Positions 1,424 to 48,553 of a stretch of 64,000 nucleotides of DNA are shown one piece after another. The position numbers and the translations under genes are program-made. The stretch covers positions 3,111,837 through 3,175,836 of the forward strand of contig CP019454.1 of the NCBI GenBank assembly GCA_002951815.1. Reading direction: 5' to 3'. The stretch is from Sulfobacillus thermotolerans. Lineage in GTDB: Bacteria; Bacillota; Sulfobacillia; Sulfobacillales; Sulfobacillaceae. The notes beneath the pieces are model-generated. The model was not told the origin of the DNA, did no database searches, and was given only the letters and a program-made list of their open reading frames with translations. Every line of letters starts with the position of its first letter. The first letter of the stretch is position 1.

Positions 1424-3079
1424 TTAAGGCGCAGATGGCAAAATCGCGTAGAGCCGGAATTTGTCAGGTCCGGGAAAACTTTTAATCAGCCGTGTCCACG
1501 GCACGGAACCCGCCCATAACCCGGGCCATTGGCGATTGATCGCGTCGAGTTTAGCGGTAAACAGCGGACGCGGCACCAAAAACGCATCGACCCGGCCTCG
1601 TGGATTATGCAAAATGGCAGCAAAATCATAATCTGACGTAATGGTTAGCTGATTTAGGTGATGGATGCGAACGGCTATTGGCCAATCAATAAAGGTATCC
1701 GCTAAAATTGTAAGGTGGGGATGGTTATTGATATACTGCACCACGTTCGCCGTTGACGTAAAAGGATTATCAGCATACCGCAATGACTGCCCGCGAAAAG
1801 CCGCATCGATAATCGGACCATTCGGATGACTCAAGACGGGAATTTGCACTGCCAAAACCGTTCCGACATTTCCTGATATCAATATCAATGACAAGCCTGC
1901 CCACAAAAAGCTGCGGGATAACAGACTTTTAGGTATTCGAATTTTTGAGGCCGCATAAATCATAAGCAACAGACCATTGGGAATAAAGGTGATAAAATAC
2001 CGATCCCAATCGGCTAAATGTCCTGAATAGACGAAAGCCAGCTCGAGCGCCACCGCCCCAATGGTACCCGCAATTAACACAATAGCCCGGGCGTCTTTAC
2101 GCTTACCAAAACAAAAGAACAACGTAAAAATTCCTCCGAGATAAATGGGCCAATACAAAAAACCAAAGTGTGCAACGTAAAGCAGGGAACCAAAGATGTG
2201 GTGATAAGCGCGTGCTAAGGCGCCATTGACGCCGGCCCCTGTCGCCGTCTGAGCTAAATTCCCATAACTAGAATTTAAGAAATAAAGCGGGCTTTTCATA
2301 ACGAGCCAGTTAAAATAGAGCCAAAGCCCCCCCACAAATACGATAGGCGCTCCAAGCAAAATCGCCGACCCTTGCCATTGAGCTGGATGAGCTTTCCCCC
2401 ATTGCGCGATAATCAACGCAGCAATCACAAAAGCTCCAAAAGGAACGGCTTCGTAGCGCATACCAAATCCCATGGCAAGCCAAAAGCCCCCAGCCATCAG
2501 TCGGCGTAACGATCCATGTTGCAGATAGTCAAAGAGTCCATCGTAGCTGCCCAACATACAGCTTACCCAAAGCAAGTCGGTCATTCCATTAGCACCATAG
2601 AGAATAATAAAGGGATTGAGCACAAAGATGAGGGTCGCCGTAATTCGCACCCCCTTCGGAACCGTAAAGCCTTGGATAATGTGGTTGAAATGATAGACCC
2701 CAATGGCCCCAAAGACTGCCGTCACCACATTGCCCGCAATACCGCGGGACACAACGGCGGGAAACCAAGGATGTAGGGCCACGATGGGTAATTCTAAGAG
2801 GCTCGGCAGAGGGTTCCATATGAGCCCAATAGCTCCCAAATGTGGGTCGCGACTAAATAAGACGTAATAAGCATTGCTGACCCGAGAGGCTGCGTCGCCC
2901 GCATAATAGTGCAGATCGTAAATAAAATAGACACTGACCGCCGCATAAACGAAAAAGGCCAATACGGCAATTCCTTGACCTTCCGACAGCATCCAGGATT
3001 TGCGCCTATTCCGAATAGCTAGAGTAGGAGTGTTTCGCGTCAGTGGTGGATTAACAAGGGACGACGTTGTGTTGGTCAT
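1424..3079 (-). CDS. Multi-pass membrane protein, GT-C glycosyltransferase-like
   Basis: A 551-residue protein with about ten hydrophobic segments. The first extracytoplasmic loop holds YYAGDAASR, followed by NPLPSLLELP. An acidic residue in this loop is typical of GT-C enzymes that use polyprenyl-phosphate sugars, so a mannosyl- or arabinosyl-transferase-like role is inferred. The start is the ATG at 3079, preceded by GGAGG with 6-7 nt spacing; an in-frame ATG eight codons upstream has no such site. It lies downstream of a polyprenol-phosphate-sugar-synthase-like gene on the same strand, which would supply the donor. The acceptor is unknown. Confidence 0.6.
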   Translation of the reverse strand: MTNTTSSLVNPPLTRNTPTLAIRNRRKSWMLSEGQGIAVLAFFVYAAVSVYFIYDLHYYAGDAASRVSNAYYVLFSRDPHLGAIGLIWNPLPSLLELPIVALHPWFPAVVSRGIAGNVVTAVFGAIGVYHFNHIIQGFTVPKGVRITATLIFVLNPFIILYGANGMTDLLWVSCMLGSYDGLFDYLQHGSLRRLMAGGFWLAMGFGMRYEAVPFGAFVIAALIIAQWGKAHPAQWQGSAILLGAPIVFVGGLWLYFNWLVMKSPLYFLNSSYGNLAQTATGAGVNGALARAYHHIFGSLLYVAHFGFLYWPIYLGGIFTLFFCFGKRKDARAIVLIAGTIGAVALELAFVYSGHLADWDRYFITFIPNGLLLMIYAASKIRIPKSLLSRSFLWAGLSLILISGNVGTVLAVQIPVLSHPNGPIIDAAFRGQSLRYADNPFTSTANVVQYINNHPHLTILADTFIDWPIAVRIHHLNQLTITSDYDFAAILHNPRGRVDAFLVPRPLFTAKLDAINRQWPGLWAGSVPWTRLIKSFPGPDKFRLYAILPSAP

Positions 3080-3266
3080 TAAGGTCCTCCATTGGACTCG
3101 CAAGATATTGAAAAGGTGCTAATACCGTCACTATTACTGTAGGCCATGAGCGCCATTTCGTCTGTCCCACAGTGCGTCTCAATAAGAGTATCGGCGCAGA
3201 TCATCCGGGGTGCCGTCTGTTAAAAACTCCAAGCATCGTCACGAAGCGTGATTGTGCGGGTTCTTA

Positions 3267-4442
3267 TTACGTTCGACTGTGAAGGGGTTGTTCCACTCCT
3301 AAAAGACTGTGAGAACGGCGAGCGAGAATGTGATAGCCTGTATAGGTCACCATTGATGCCACAGCGATTCCTGCTACTTTGCCCAATAAAGCTCCAGTAT
3401 TTCCCAAGACGTGCGACGACAATCCACTGAGTGTCATCTGCACGGCCACTCCAAGACTTGTCACCACATAGAATCCGAAGGCCGGTAAGGGGGTGCGAAA
3501 ACTAACACGAGAATGCAGAATATAGCCACATATACTCGCCACAATCCATGCGCCTAACGATTCCAAAGCAGCGAGAAATCCGTTGTGAAATGGTGGCCAA
3601 ATCGACATAAACATCCAGAAGACCGCAATATCGACCACTGTGTTGAGTGAACCCACCACCCCAAACCGCAAAAGCTGCCATCTATCCTCCCACACGCGGT
3701 GGAATACGTGTGACCAATGAGCCCATGCCATCTTCCCCAAAGACGGCACACAAGCCACCATATGATTCAGTCCGGCTCGTCGTGGACGCACACTGCGCTG
3801 ATTGACGGGAACCTCGATAATCCGCAAATTATGACGCCTTGCCTTCATTAACGCTTCAATATCATAGAGCCATCCCGGTTCCCTGGCTTTCGTTAAGACA
3901 TCTCGCGCAAACCACCCTGGGAAGACTTTCATGCCCGCTTGTGTATCCTTGACGGGGAGCTGCAACACCTTAGATGCTAGCCAATGCGCTAAGCGGGAGG
4001 TGTGGCGTTCAAACCACGGACGTTCATCATGTTCCCGGCAAGCAATGACGCATTGGTCATAATCTTTGCCAATGAGTTCTACCATTGCAGGCAATAGTTC
4101 CGCGGGGTATTCCAAATCGGCATCAATAAAGGCGACAACGTCGCCTCTACTGGCCTGAAATCCACACATAATGGCATGGCCTTTTCCGGTCGAGGTATGG
4201 GTTTTCAACACGTGAACCGGAGAATGCACAACATCCGCCGCTCTTCGTGCCTCGGTACTGGTGTCATCGGAAGACGCGTCATCAACGACAATGATTTCTA
4301 CCGCCATGTCAGCCGCTTGAAAGATCGCGTCTATTGTGTATATGGCCTCACCAATGCGTCCCGCCTCATTCTTGGCGGGAATCACCACTGACACTAATTG
4401 CCGATGGGGTACCCATGCCGTATTTGGTGCCATATCTGCCAA
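3267..4442 (-). CDS. GT2 glycosyltransferase fused to GtrA-like membrane domain
   Basis: Residues ~15-240 are a GT2 domain of the dolichyl/polyprenyl-phosphate sugar synthase kind: SVVIPAKNEAGRI, IIVVDDASSDDT, GKGHAIMCG and the metal-binding FIDADLEYP. Residues ~255-380 form four hydrophobic segments opening with LRFGVVGSLNTVVDIAVFW, the GtrA signature. The enzyme probably loads a sugar onto a lipid carrier and the GtrA part anchors or helps flip it. The start is uncertain: TTG at 4442 has GGAAGGG 12 nt upstream, while ATG at 4433 lies three codons later. The GT-C-like gene downstream is a plausible partner. Family is clear; sugar is unknown. Confidence 0.85.
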   Translation of the reverse strand: MADMAPNTAWVPHRQLVSVVIPAKNEAGRIGEAIYTIDAIFQAADMAVEIIVVDDASSDDTSTEARRAADVVHSPVHVLKTHTSTGKGHAIMCGFQASRGDVVAFIDADLEYPAELLPAMVELIGKDYDQCVIACREHDERPWFERHTSRLAHWLASKVLQLPVKDTQAGMKVFPGWFARDVLTKAREPGWLYDIEALMKARRHNLRIIEVPVNQRSVRPRRAGLNHMVACVPSLGKMAWAHWSHVFHRVWEDRWQLLRFGVVGSLNTVVDIAVFWMFMSIWPPFHNGFLAALESLGAWIVASICGYILHSRVSFRTPLPAFGFYVVTSLGVAVQMTLSGLSSHVLGNTGALLGKVAGIAVASMVTYTGYHILARRSHSLLGVEQPLHSRT

Positions 4443-4621
4443 AATGGTTCGCTTCCCTTCCTACCCGTGATGTTCTCACTCATACGCTAACAGGGCAGGA
4501 AACAAGGAACAGTACCAGTCGCAGTCGCAATTTTGGTCTCTTATCGACCGAGTATTGGTGCAAAGCGCCTTATAGCCCATAAAGGGGATGAAGACATCTG
4601 ATCTTGTCTGGGGAAGTGGGT

Positions 4622-4639
4622 TGAGACAAAGCCTGAGAC
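4622..4639 (+). promoter_or_regulatory. TGAGAC direct repeats (candidate operator)
   Basis: TGAGAC occurs at 4622-4627 and 4634-4639, 12 bp apart, as TGAGACAAA-gcc-TGAGACtGTTT. An almost identical arrangement precedes the convergent ATPase regulator at 7420-7448. It lies about 80 bp upstream of the LuxR-type regulator start. Confidence 0.5.
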
Positions 4640-4719
4640 TGTTTACGGTTTTTTAACCCATTACACTCAAAGGGCCAACATAATGGATGGTTGTATATAA
4701 AGAAAGGACGAATTCGGAT

Positions 4720-5397
4720 ATGGCCCGAAAGGCATACCAAAATAAATCGGCCGCAATTCCTGCCTTGACGCAAACCGAAATAGACGCGCTAAAGCTCGCA
4801 GCCCAAGGCTATACAGCAGAACAAATCGCCCAGACCATGGAGATTGCACCACGCACCGCCACGCGCCATATTCACCGGGCGCTGAAAAAGCTTCTCACGC
4901 GTTGGCCCACAGCGCTAATCGAAGGATCGCCGAAAGTAACAAAGACCGGCTCGTCTGACCAGTGGAATAGGATTTTGACACGCAAGGCGGGAGAATCCCG
5001 CATCAAGGCGTATATTAAGCGCGCTCAGTTGCAACCCCATTCGTCATGGGCTTATATTTATATTCTCCTCATGAATAGTACATCCCAGCCCTATAGACAG
5101 CCCACAGTATTAGAGGGTATTCCCCACCATGTCCGCGAATCGGATACAGTCATCCAGTGGGATGACCATGAATGGGTAATTTTTCTCCCCGCGGCAACAA
5201 GGGGAGAAGCCGAAGCGGTGACACGCCGGATGACTGGCGAGCGCTCGGTTCACTTTCCCTTTGGCATTGGATGGAGTGTGTCAGGGCTTCACGACGATGT
5301 GGCAGATGCCATTCAAACCGCTCGTCGTTTAGCCCTTGAAGATTATGCCCAGGTGGTCTTTTATTCGACCTCCCATAACCGAATGCCTCCCCATTAG
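4720..5397 (+). CDS. LuxR-type HTH regulator with degenerate GGDEF-like domain
   Basis: A 225-residue protein. Residues ~14-60 form a LuxR/sigma-4-type helix-turn-helix (LTQTEIDALKLAAQGY, AEQIAQTMEIAPRTATRHI). The C-terminal ~130 residues follow the layout of a diguanylate cyclase domain (RESDTVIQWDDHEWVIFLP, then GIGWSV and DAIQTARRLALEDYAQ), but the GGDEF signature is replaced by DDHEW. Catalysis is therefore unlikely; nucleotide sensing or dimerisation is more plausible (inference). The ATG at 4720 is chosen because AAAGGA lies 11 nt upstream; an ATG at 4687 has no such site. It converges on the ATPase regulator and shares its TGAGAC repeat. Confidence 0.7.
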   Translation: MARKAYQNKSAAIPALTQTEIDALKLAAQGYTAEQIAQTMEIAPRTATRHIHRALKKLLTRWPTALIEGSPKVTKTGSSDQWNRILTRKAGESRIKAYIKRAQLQPHSSWAYIYILLMNSTSQPYRQPTVLEGIPHHVRESDTVIQWDDHEWVIFLPAATRGEAEAVTRRMTGERSVHFPFGIGWSVSGLHDDVADAIQTARRLALEDYAQVVFYSTSHNRMPPH

Positions 5398-5455
5398 GGG
5401 GAGGTGCCTCGCTCCTATTCCGGCGCGTTTTTAACTTGAACGCTTGGTACACAGG

Positions 5456-7309
5456 TCATTCAAATAGGGCCTGAGCCAAGCGTTCTAGCGCCGCCCGGTG
5501 GTTGCGAAAGTATGTGGCACGGGAGAGGTGCAGACGTTCCGCCAATTCTTCATGGGTCCCCTGCTTATCCAAATAATACAGCGCCAGCAACGTTTTCCCG
5601 CCAATATGCGCTCCTAAATCGGCCGACGTCAAGGCATCGAGGAACCATGCCCGTAATTGGTCCGGAACCCCAACCTGACGCCAATACTCGGCCAGGACGG
5701 TTCGTTCTAAATCTGGTTCGGAAGATAACAACTGAAGCGCTTCTTGAATCGCAGGAATTGGGTGCTCAGGCGGCGGGGCAACCGGGGCTCGCAGAATATC
5801 GGCCAGCCAGGCATGATATCCCATTGTAGCCAAATCGAGCATCCTAGATGGTGTCGCATTCTTTGGATTCATCGGCAATCCAAATCCCAAATGATTCAAC
5901 ACCTGGCTCATGGCTGGCGATGTCTCCCGTACGGTCCACAGCACTTTGCCTTGGGGCGGAAAGACGCGAAGGAGCGCCCCGAAGACCGTCTGTTCCGTGA
6001 GTCCATCATGGTCTGGCACCTGCAAATCATGAATAATAAGCAATTGATCGTGACTGCGACGGTCGATGACCACATATCCGGCCGCGGTGCCGTCTTGGTG
6101 AAATGCCGTCAGCACTTCCGCCTGCGTATAAGAGACCTGTGCGGCATCATAAGACGCGGAGGGCAACTCCGATAGCCGACCCCAACTCCACGTAAACTCA
6201 TCACTACGGTCGAATAATGGCTTCCCGACTTTCATCCGTATGAGGGGCATGATCCGGTCCCAAAACTCCTCGCTTGTCGTCGCCTGCTTATGGAGTGCTT
6301 GATGAAGATGATAAGCGGCTAGTTTTCGTGTCCATTGTTCCCACATCCAAGGCCGTGAGGCTTGCGCTGCGCGCCTTACCCGTGCTCGCACCAACGCCGG
6401 CATTCCATAATACCCGCCTTGATAGGCATCCACGAAGGGCATCGACGTTAATGCATCCCACGACGTTGCCACAGCCTGATGCCCTAGCACTTCGGCGAGC
6501 AAGTGGCGGTTAAAGATCGGGGTCATTGAAGAGACGGCGATTAAGGCATCGACATCTTTATCGTTGCCCTGTCCCGCTCGCCAAGCCATACGCTGAGAGC
6601 CCGGATGGCACACTTGCTCTAAGAGAAATGACGTCATTCCTCCTGTCATCACTCCGCACGCCACCGCACTATCACCCGGCCATGCCTCGGCCACTAATTT
6701 GATGCTATCCATCATCATACACAACAACCTCGGGCGCCCCCTGGAGATAGCAATGGCTTCCTCCACCACGGCGGGATCATGGACGTCTAACTGAGCACAT
6801 AACTGACGAGCTGTATCCACATCAAAATCCGTCAGCCGGTGCGACACAATTTGTCCTGACTGCTCGCCAGGCCACAAGCGGCGTGGCGACTGACGCCCGG
6901 ATAAGATAACACAGCCACCAGCTCGGCGGACTCCAGCAATGACGGGCCACAAATCTTGGACAGCATCATAGTTATCCACAATCCATAAGAGACGCTCTTT
7001 GTCTTTAACCGCCTCCACTTGCATCATGATCCGCGGCCATCCATGTTGGCCGTGCCTTGAGCCGGCCATCTCATACTGGTTATCCAGGAGGCCGTCGGTA
7101 AAGATCATCTCGCCCTCCCAATCCATCATCGACTCAAAGAACCGTTGTAAAAGATACGATTTACCGCAGCCAGCTGGTCCCCAAAGATATAGAATGGGAC
7201 GCGTGCCTACAGGACGTTGTGGCGTGTGCTGTAGTGCCTGCCACACGGCATCGCGTCCAATAATGCTCTCCCGGTACTCCGTATTGTACGACCCCACTTC
7301 TTCAATCAC
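5456..7309 (-). CDS. AAA/STAND-like ATPase regulator with C-terminal HTH
   Basis: A 617-residue protein. The N-terminal ATPase has Walker A GPAGCGKSYLLQ and a Walker B-like RLLWIVDNYD; the helical middle resembles STAND/AAA signalling ATPases. Around residues 395-475 a stretch (AAGYVVIDRR to VLNHLGFGLPM) is weakly reminiscent of a GNAT fold; this is only an impression. The C-terminus is a helix-turn-helix, THEELAERLHLSRATYFRNH. Start is GTG at 7309 with GGGGGG about 8 nt upstream. Ligand and targets cannot be told. Its 3' end lies 58 bp from the end of the convergent LuxR-type gene. Confidence 0.7.
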   Translation of the reverse strand: MIEEVGSYNTEYRESIIGRDAVWQALQHTPQRPVGTRPILYLWGPAGCGKSYLLQRFFESMMDWEGEMIFTDGLLDNQYEMAGSRHGQHGWPRIMMQVEAVKDKERLLWIVDNYDAVQDLWPVIAGVRRAGGCVILSGRQSPRRLWPGEQSGQIVSHRLTDFDVDTARQLCAQLDVHDPAVVEEAIAISRGRPRLLCMMMDSIKLVAEAWPGDSAVACGVMTGGMTSFLLEQVCHPGSQRMAWRAGQGNDKDVDALIAVSSMTPIFNRHLLAEVLGHQAVATSWDALTSMPFVDAYQGGYYGMPALVRARVRRAAQASRPWMWEQWTRKLAAYHLHQALHKQATTSEEFWDRIMPLIRMKVGKPLFDRSDEFTWSWGRLSELPSASYDAAQVSYTQAEVLTAFHQDGTAAGYVVIDRRSHDQLLIIHDLQVPDHDGLTEQTVFGALLRVFPPQGKVLWTVRETSPAMSQVLNHLGFGLPMNPKNATPSRMLDLATMGYHAWLADILRAPVAPPPEHPIPAIQEALQLLSSEPDLERTVLAEYWRQVGVPDQLRAWFLDALTSADLGAHIGGKTLLALYYLDKQGTHEELAERLHLSRATYFRNHRAALERLAQALFE

Positions 7310-7419
7310 TTGTGGTGCCCCCCGTTCTTCGTATCGTCTTTTTGTGGTTCGGCAACATTTGTGCTCATCCTGAGCGCGCTAGCTCCTTTTGGTACCGTAT
7401 TTGTACTGTAATTCAAAAC

Positions 7420-7448
7420 GTCTCATGAAACGTCTCACATTTGTCTCA
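7420..7448 (-). promoter_or_regulatory. Triple TGAGAC direct repeat (candidate operator)
   Basis: On the minus strand TGAGAC occurs at 7448-7443, 7437-7432 and 7425-7420, spaced 11 and 12 bp, with the run TGAGACAAA-tg-TGAGACGTTT. It lies 111-139 bp upstream of the ATPase regulator start and matches the element before the LuxR-type regulator. Confidence 0.5.
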
Positions 7449-47597: not shown

Positions 47598-47906
47598 ATT
47601 TCGGGCCATGGCGGGAATCCTCCCAGTTGATATCTGAGTCGATAACTGGTTCAAGGATGTGTTGGGTTGTGGTGTGTTTAAAGGCACAAACCACGTTGCG
47701 AAGTTCGCTGATCCAGCCGCGACCGACTCGGTAAAATTGCTTTGAATGCCATGACCATGTGCTACATTAAGGTCAAAGTTGACCGTATAAGGATTTGATC
47801 CAGTGGGGGGGGAACCGCGAGGTTCGATACCGAGAAGCCCCACATAATTGATAGGTCCGCCTCCAACAGCGGGGCAAGAATTAGCCGTAGGGGAATTGGC
47901 ACCCAT
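47589..47906 (-). CDS. Possible small gene or remnant
   Basis: A 105-residue frame with protein-like composition (NPYTVNFDLNVAHGHGIQSNF, NFATWFVPLNTPQPNTSL) and AAGGAAG 7 nt before its ATG. No family is recognised and no homologous context is visible. The rest of the 618-bp stretch 47486-48103 has only short overlapping frames, so this may be a decayed gene. Confidence 0.3.
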   Translation of the reverse strand: MGANSPTANSCPAVGGGPINYVGLLGIEPRGSPPTGSNPYTVNFDLNVAHGHGIQSNFTESVAAGSANFATWFVPLNTPQPNTSLNQLSTQISTGRIPAMARNRK

Positions 47907-48048
47907 TGGAACACTTCCTTACGGTCAGCTGCCAGAAGTTCCATGGGCTGCAGGATTACCGGTGATTGCCCTAGGCTTACGCCATTGGTCTATGGCGGTC
48001 CCGCCGGGTTGTTCACGCAGCAGGTTGATCTCGCTTAGTTTCTCCCCT

Positions 48049-48084
48049 GAAGCCGCACGACGCCCTCTTGTATTGTGCGGCTTC
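48049..48084. terminator. Hairpin downstream of MarR gene
   Basis: GAAGCCGCAC (48049-48058) pairs perfectly with GTGCGGCTTC (48075-48084). It lies 20 bp after the MarR stop; no T tract, so its role as terminator is uncertain. Confidence 0.4.
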
Positions 48085-48103
48085 CCATACCCATGGCTAC
48101 GCT

Positions 48104-48553
48104 TTAGCGCCTTTCATCTTGAGAGAATTCCTTGCTACTATCGCTAACTTTTTTCAGCAACCCTAGCAGTTGCTGCTGATCATCAGGCGACAAAGCTTTT
48201 AAATGTTGCTGCCACATCGCGCGCCTCGCAGTCCGCACCGATTCCACCATCGACCGCCCTAACGCGGTGACGGTAAGAAAGTGGCGCCGACGGTCTTGGG
48301 GATCGGGTTCTTGTCCTACATACCCTAAATCCCTTAGGCGTCGCAAGACCGATGACGTGGCAGGGCGCCCGACTCCCATCTTGTCTGCTAAGGCGGAGGC
48401 GCTAATCGCATGATGCCGATAGAGTATCATCAGCGCTCGAATCTCTGCGCCATTTAGCGCAGGCGTATCGGTTTTAGCACGCCAGCGCCAGCCCAGGCGG
48501 ACAAACCGCTCCACCTCCATGACAAGTTCCTCGAGTACATCTGAATCGGACAC
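48104..48553 (-). CDS. MarR-family regulator
   Basis: A 149-residue winged-helix regulator: LNGAEIRALMILYRHH, ALADKMGVGRPATSSVLRRL (recognition helix) and the wing DPQDRRRHFLTVTALG with the DxRxR-type motif. GTG start with AGGGGG 7 nt upstream. It may respond to phenolic or oxidative compounds; no target gene is evident. Its start faces the end of the argS unit. Confidence 0.9.
   Translation of the reverse strand: MSDSDVLEELVMEVERFVRLGWRWRAKTDTPALNGAEIRALMILYRHHAISASALADKMGVGRPATSSVLRRLRDLGYVGQEPDPQDRRRHFLTVTALGRSMVESVRTARRAMWQQHLKALSPDDQQQLLGLLKKVSDSSKEFSQDERR

Follow-up and report, generated by a model that had tools for sequence, protein, structure and literature searches.

Bacterial regulators that combine an ATPase or a second-messenger domain with a DNA-binding domain are known in several designs. 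MalT-type STAND activators comprise a STAND ATPase with a C-terminal DNA-binding HTH domain and act on direct-repeat sites. VpsT is a c-di-GMP-responsive LuxR-family regulator that uses its receiver domain for this purpose, and PelD, a degenerate-GGDEF receptor, is a membrane protein. Large ATP-binding activators acting on direct repeats are represented by the SARP-LAL regulators and AfsR (PMC5930380, PMC10936776); among them PimR binds cooperatively to two or three direct repeats spaced ~11 bp apart and activates pimM (PMC5930380). In Proteobacteria, most PEP-CTERM genes are preceded by one cis-site that is attributed to the PrsK/PrsR-RpoN system on the basis of a matching phylogenetic profile, and in the same 2006 survey the Firmicutes were found to lack the PEP-CTERM/exosortase system (PMC1569441).

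Here we analyzed a locus of the acidophilic bacterium Sulfobacillus thermotolerans located within a 64,000-nucleotide stretch of genomic DNA (the window), in which a gene for a LuxR-type protein with a degenerate GGDEF domain and a convergent gene for a STAND ATPase are both preceded by TGAGAC direct repeats (Table 1). The arrangement resembles the PimR-pimM pair in having an ATP-binding regulator, direct repeats with a period of ~11 bp and a LuxR-type gene as the target, with binding being predicted in our case. In contrast to PimR, whose SARP domain recognizes CGGCAAG heptamers within an antibiotic synthesis cluster, the half-site is TGAGAC, the candidate DNA-binding domain is a C-terminal HTH, the target genes are related to the cell surface and the exosortase, and the ATPase gene also carries the operator. 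A single cis-site shared by CTERM genes is reminiscent of PrsK/PrsR-RpoN, although that system involves sigma-54 and an NtrC-like response regulator rather than a sigma-A-type -10 box and a STAND ATPase. The ATPase differs from MalT by its HTH domain, which is similar to Sigma70_r4/DUF1492 rather than to GerE, by a different middle domain and by the absence of maltose genes. Like PelD, the LuxR-type protein has lost the catalytic GGDEF motif, has kept the RxxD I-site and is linked to polysaccharide genes, whereas its fusion of a degenerate GGDEF domain to an N-terminal LuxR-type HTH distinguishes it from both VpsT and PelD.

The preliminary description of this DNA suggested that the gene pair may be an undescribed regulatory module. 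As far as the open-access literature is concerned, we found neither this combination, nor the TGAGAC operator, nor such a regulator class for an exosortase regulon, nor its presence in a Firmicutes lineage, which is no proof of novelty; the component parts are of known kinds. Literature on TGAGAC direct repeats as the site of an activator or a regulon was likewise not found.

Table 1. Genes, operators and predicted promoter elements in the S. thermotolerans window (window coordinates).
Feature	Position	Strand	Basis and details
PMT_2-type membrane glycosyltransferase, proposed regulon member	1424..3103	-	Pfam; operator and -10 at 3181-3136 (-)
TACAGT upstream of the PMT-type glycosyltransferase gene	3141-3136	-	28 bp on from the 3164..3181 operator (G000:C1:3115000-3115017)
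Further operator, TGAGAC-N6-TGGGAC	3164..3181	-	Before the PMT-type glycosyltransferase gene; mismatch search
Operator of the LuxR-type gene	4622..4639	+	TGAGAC-N6-TGAGAC(TG), 12-bp period, N6 class; copies at 4622-4627 and 4634-4639
Predicted -10 of the LuxR-type gene, TACACT	4662..4667	+	28 bp after the first base of the last repeat; offset-28 peak, N6 composite match G000:C1:3116458
LuxR-type HTH and degenerate GGDEF (DDHEW) protein, 236 aa as called	4687..5397	+	Pfam, fold, conservation
STAND/AAA ATPase, 617 aa, Walker A GPAGCGKS, C-terminal HTH GTHEELAERLHLSRATYFRNHR	5456..7309	-	Pfam, fold, conservation
Predicted -10 of the ATPase gene, TACAGT	7405..7410	-	27 bp after the first base of the middle repeat; N5 composite match G000:C1:3119241-3119284
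Third TGAGAC copy, ATPase promoter	7420..7425	-	12 bp further on, between operator and -10; copy at 7425-7420
Operator of the ATPase gene	7432..7448	-	TGAGAC-N5-TGAGAC, 11-bp period, N5 class; copies at 7448-7443 and 7437-7432

Re-reading of the window confirmed all letters and positions given earlier for the TGAGAC copies upstream of both genes, and the ORF/Pfam scan bore out the described gene types and their convergence. A single TGAGAC is not unusual in the 64-kb window (27 matches versus 21 expected). The tandem pattern TGAGAC-N5..7-TGAGAC occurs five times in the whole 3.3 Mb genome, versus two occurrences of the reversed control; three of these pairs are located in the two regulator promoters and the fourth is found 12 kb away, upstream of an exosortase gene. 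There were no matches to TGAGAC-N7-TGAGAC, since the spacing is either 5 or 6. A genome search allowing three mismatches produced 93 matches, mostly due to chance, of which only those with the -10 geometry described below were used. A weak operator-like sequence, AGAGAC-N6-TGCGAC, is present at positions 4524-4541 (minus strand), followed by TGCGACTGGTACTG, upstream of a GT2/GtrA gene (3267-4442, minus strand). No Rfam family was matched in the first 12 kb of the window.

The convergent gene pair is kept in eight genomes, S. thermotolerans included, and TGAGAC is the only hexamer that is present in both promoters of all eight ortholog pairs; the runner-up hexamers overlap with it, and the best hexamer in 200 shuffles was found in three of the eight pairs. 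The repeats in the ortholog promoters have a phase of either 12 bp or a multiple of 11 bp (11, 22 or 33 bp). The repeat is thus conserved at homologous loci, so that the sequence-level condition named for refuting the initial proposal did not hold; that one protein, perhaps a member of the pair, controls both genes is supported as a prediction by the conservation of both the operator and the gene pair. The pattern TGAGACN{5,6}TGASAC has 85 matches versus 13 for the reversed pattern in 25 genomes of family f1, and its enrichment among 41 relatives is almost confined to the family of the window, many of these relatives being draft genomes with gene starts from simple ORF calling and those of the same genus being non-independent. 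Paired sites were found at the ATPase promoters of 14 other genomes. The ATPase homologs of G016, G008 and G023b have a near-consensus recognition helix and no TGAGAC in their own promoters. Actinobacterial STAND homologs with SRATYFRRL helices have no upstream TGAGAC pairs, with a single exception (L265), and therefore we do not claim the operator for that group. In our reading, the TGAGAC repeats are likely to be the operator of a lineage-specific regulon in the Sulfobacillaceae.

The position of the repeats relative to the promoter is nearly constant. For 64 intergenic sites in genomes of the family, a TATAAT-like hexamer (at least five of six positions) is nearly confined to two offsets counted from the first base of the last repeat, namely +27 (9 sites) and +28 (10 sites); in 1000 shuffles the largest pair of adjacent offsets contained 7 sites, versus the 19 observed. 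The N5 sites are mostly at +27 to the -10 box and the N6 sites at +28. In whole-genome searches of 41 genomes, the composite of the N5 operator and the -10 box was matched 22 times versus none for the reversed pattern, and that of the N6 operator 44 times versus three. With the -10 box 27-28 bp away, the operator covers approximately positions -52 to -33, the place in which an activator would substitute for the -35 box, and from this geometry we infer that the sites activate rather than repress transcription. The predicted -10 position also makes the ATG at 4720 a likelier start of the LuxR-type protein (225 aa) than the one called.

The LuxR-type protein has a GerE HTH domain (PF00196, 36.7 bits versus a cut-off of 23.5), and its C-terminal domain has the GGDEF fold, with Z scores of 16.0 to DosC and 15.4 to PleD (model pLDDT 77). 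The catalytic GGDEF motif is replaced by DDHEW, and by other letters in the relatives, so that the fold is retained without the motif. None of the 16 homologs compared deviates at the I-site residues R150, D153 and R181, which have the spacing of R359, D362 and R390 in PleD, i.e. an RxxD motif plus a distal arginine. Loss of the catalytic motif together with retention of the I-site predicts c-di-GMP binding without synthesis, so this protein is probably a c-di-GMP receptor; one of its homologs weakly matches PelD_GGDEF. At two loci from other genera (L204 and L161, in G011 and G023), the gene beside that of the ATPase encodes an HTH protein whose GGDEF domain is intact, so that an active cyclase may have been the ancestor of the LuxR-type partner.

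The Walker A motif and the AAA-like fold assign the second protein to the STAND/AAA P-loop ATPases. The AAA_16, AAA_22 and NACHT families match between 10 and 21 of the 23 members, with the matches for this ATPase being below the curated cut-offs. Residues 8-300 have fold matches to ORC/Cdc6/DnaA and to NLR/Avs. The protein is not a SARP-LAL regulator, as it has no N-terminal SARP domain in Pfam, where the core begins at residue 17 and the HTH is at the C-terminus; it would only work like one. We also set aside the defense-system reading of the Avs/NLR fold matches, for which the PADLOC matches were marginal and the genomic context consists of surface genes, and a GNAT-like reading of the middle domain (about residues 370-480) considered from the secondary structure, which had no Pfam match and lay in a protein for which the fold searches covered mainly residues 8-300. 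A second STAND family has related C-terminal SRATYYRY helices, and in six genomes a TGAGAC-N5-TGAGAC promoter is located at its stop codon or no more than about 20 bp away from it. At five loci (L208, L211, L167, L207 and L214) this promoter is followed by a terminator-like hairpin within about 100 nt and by no obvious ORF, and the stop-codon promoters of these five genomes possibly drive a small RNA.

The main question is which protein reads the repeats, and we propose the STAND ATPase as both the reader of TGAGAC and the activator. In ten genomes having the same operator, the mean pairwise identity of its HTH domain is 87%, versus 40% over the full length. The relatives G013 and G021 have a recognition helix altered from SRATYFRNHR to SSATYFRNQR, and their ATPase promoter contains no TGAGAC. 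An alternative is that TGAGAC is read by the LuxR-type protein, which would control both genes in response to c-di-GMP as its ligand. This protein, a member of the pair, has a GerE-type HTH and is encoded by a gene that itself carries the operator, and N6 sites with the ACTG extension are mainly found upstream of the LuxR-type gene and the surface genes; however, the HTH of the protein is only 37% identical (minimum 11%) among genomes with the same operator, versus 30% for the whole protein, so that the recognition helix varies where the operator is constant. Furthermore, G009, with an estimated completeness of 100%, has no LuxR-type homolog with an HTH and nevertheless retains N5 sites upstream of the ATPase gene and N6 sites at the exosortase and CTERM genes, and the sites linked to the second STAND family are found in genomes without the LuxR-type protein. 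Head-to-tail repeats are also less typical of GerE dimers. We regard this alternative as unlikely. Taken together, the HTH identities, the sites of G009, the helix change in G013 and G021 and the second STAND family favor the ATPase, which is likely the better candidate for the predicted binding, although a third protein, or both proteins jointly, could bind the sites, and the N5 and N6 classes could have different readers.

A regulator encoded elsewhere, e.g. a PhoB-type winged-helix response regulator with the pair being merely its targets, seems to us just as improbable as the LuxR-type reader. Direct repeats of 11 bp that replace the -35 box would also suit PhoB/OmpR-type activators, and in G003 and G004 an N5 site is found at a gene similar to a truncated response regulator, but the distribution of the sites across genera tracks the two STAND families, no part of the ATPase is more conserved than its HTH, and exosortase genes have no sites in genomes without the ATPase. 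The constant distance to a -10-like box might also be explained if TGAGAC were the -35 element of an alternative sigma factor. This is very unlikely given that the -10 box is an ordinary TATAAT, that the gap of 21-22 bp between repeat and -10 is too long for a -35 element, and that the element is repeated at 11-12 bp, in some cases in three copies. Finally, the motif is short and single copies are not enriched in the window, as would fit a likeness by chance or a promoter recently duplicated from one gene to the other; yet it is conserved with differing flanks where the proteins share only 30-40% identity, and the composite matches (22 versus 0 and 44 versus 3) and its recurrence in every ortholog pair, which already refutes this explanation, leave it a negligible probability.

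Analysis of the genes accompanying these sites points to the function of the regulon. The genomic neighborhood of the pair contains an exosortase gene (PF09721, 63.9 bits versus a cut-off of 25.7), which reaches no NCBIfam cut-off for the named Xrt types (best XrtA, 49 versus 208) and passes only the generic signature TIGR04178. It also contains a small secreted protein with the PEP-CTERM-like C-terminus LPEVPWAAGLP, a hydrophobic stretch and basic residues, an HTH gene whose GGDEF domain is intact (RRSD plus AGDEF), a GH113 lipoprotein and a large Ig-like secreted protein. The exosortase without a named Xrt model and the PEVP sorting-like signal are found about 12 kb upstream of the pair (L091:13080-14705 and L091:11438-11887). 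Near the intact HTH-GGDEF gene, L091:16423-18669 (minus strand) encodes a family 2 glycosyltransferase with two c-di-GMP-binding MshEN domains, likely a c-di-GMP-controlled polysaccharide synthase.

The sorting-like signal G-x-x-P-E-V-P-[WYL]-A was identified at the C-terminus of small secreted proteins encoded by 53 genes; it recurs in secreted proteins adjoining these loci, and its profile matches proteins of many f1 genomes, the lowest E-value being 1e-21. In the promoters of these 53 genes, which were picked by the signal alone without use of the motif, TGAGAC is the top enriched hexamer (30 of 53 versus 90 of 457 other genes, p = 3.6e-8; 8 of 53 on the reverse strand), a comparison that is rough because members of the regulon are among the control genes, which were taken from the same loci. 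The extended pattern TGAGAC-N10-ACTG is located at the start of 10 of the 14 exosortase genes in ATPase-carrying genomes and of none of the three in G027, G028 and G032, for which we found no ATPase. The exosortase genes of G001, G004, G011 and G015 have no strict site within the stretch read, and those of G002, G003 and G009 have it just inside the first possible start codon, and therefore upstream only given a later start. Exosortase and CTERM substrates occur in the same genomes, as in a PEP-CTERM/exosortase system, their co-occurrence not being strict, as the drafts G017, G023 and G024 have no exosortase match. Given the operator sites upstream of exosortase, glycosyltransferase and small secreted-protein genes, the regulator pair probably controls a surface-display and exopolysaccharide regulon.

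Several further observations concern the extent of this gene set. A PEVP-CTERM gene remnant is present at window positions 47848-48147 (plus strand), with a readable signal and a frame broken before and after it; intact counterparts exist elsewhere in the same and related genomes. At L206 (G020:C123:21683), TGAGAC-N5-TGAGAC is located 62 bp upstream of an EAL-like gene, a possible c-di-GMP phosphodiesterase of the same regulon. In two genomes (L402 and L403), an N5 operator precedes an apparent TPP riboswitch and thiC by about 170 bp.

Overall, we consider it fairly probable that the ATPase reads TGAGAC and activates a surface regulon by a class II mechanism, with c-di-GMP input through the LuxR-type protein. 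In this model, the ATP-bound oligomeric ATPase would bind two or three half-sites that follow each other every 11-12 bp on the same side of the DNA. The final half-site, 27-28 bp before the sigma-A-type -10 box, would stand in for the -35 element and recruit RNA polymerase in a class II-like manner. The ATPase would thus activate its own gene through the N5 spacing and the convergent LuxR/degenerate-GGDEF gene through the N6 spacing, as well as the exosortase, PEVP-CTERM secreted-protein and polysaccharide genes of the same genomes. The LuxR-type protein, having lost cyclase chemistry and kept a complete I-site, most likely reports c-di-GMP to the circuit, either by acting as a second regulator or by partnering with the ATPase. 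The model builds on several observations, namely the conservation of the operator, the HTH and the I-site, the geometry of the -10 box, the linkage of the genes and the sequence-based membership of the regulon; it predicts the identity of the binder, activation over repression, the ATP dependence and the binding of c-di-GMP. More tentatively, the pair may work as a two-protein switch, in which the self-activating ATPase reads the repeats and the LuxR-type protein feeds in c-di-GMP, turning on a so far undescribed exosortase system of the Firmicutes, with PEVPWA-CTERM proteins as its substrates, and the c-di-GMP-responsive polysaccharide synthase.

With this work, a conserved operator is defined and a candidate regulator is named for surface display and exopolysaccharide production in Sulfobacillus, which is used in bioleaching, a process where attachment to minerals matters; in one comparative study, the exosortase system was reported only in Leptospirillum (PMC5418355). 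The shared cis-site logic of the PEP-CTERM regulons, described for sigma-54 in Proteobacteria (PMC1569441), would be extended to a Gram-positive lineage with a different class of regulator. Two questions are thereby made testable, namely the activation of transcription by STAND ATPases and the entry of c-di-GMP into the regulation of the exosortase system.
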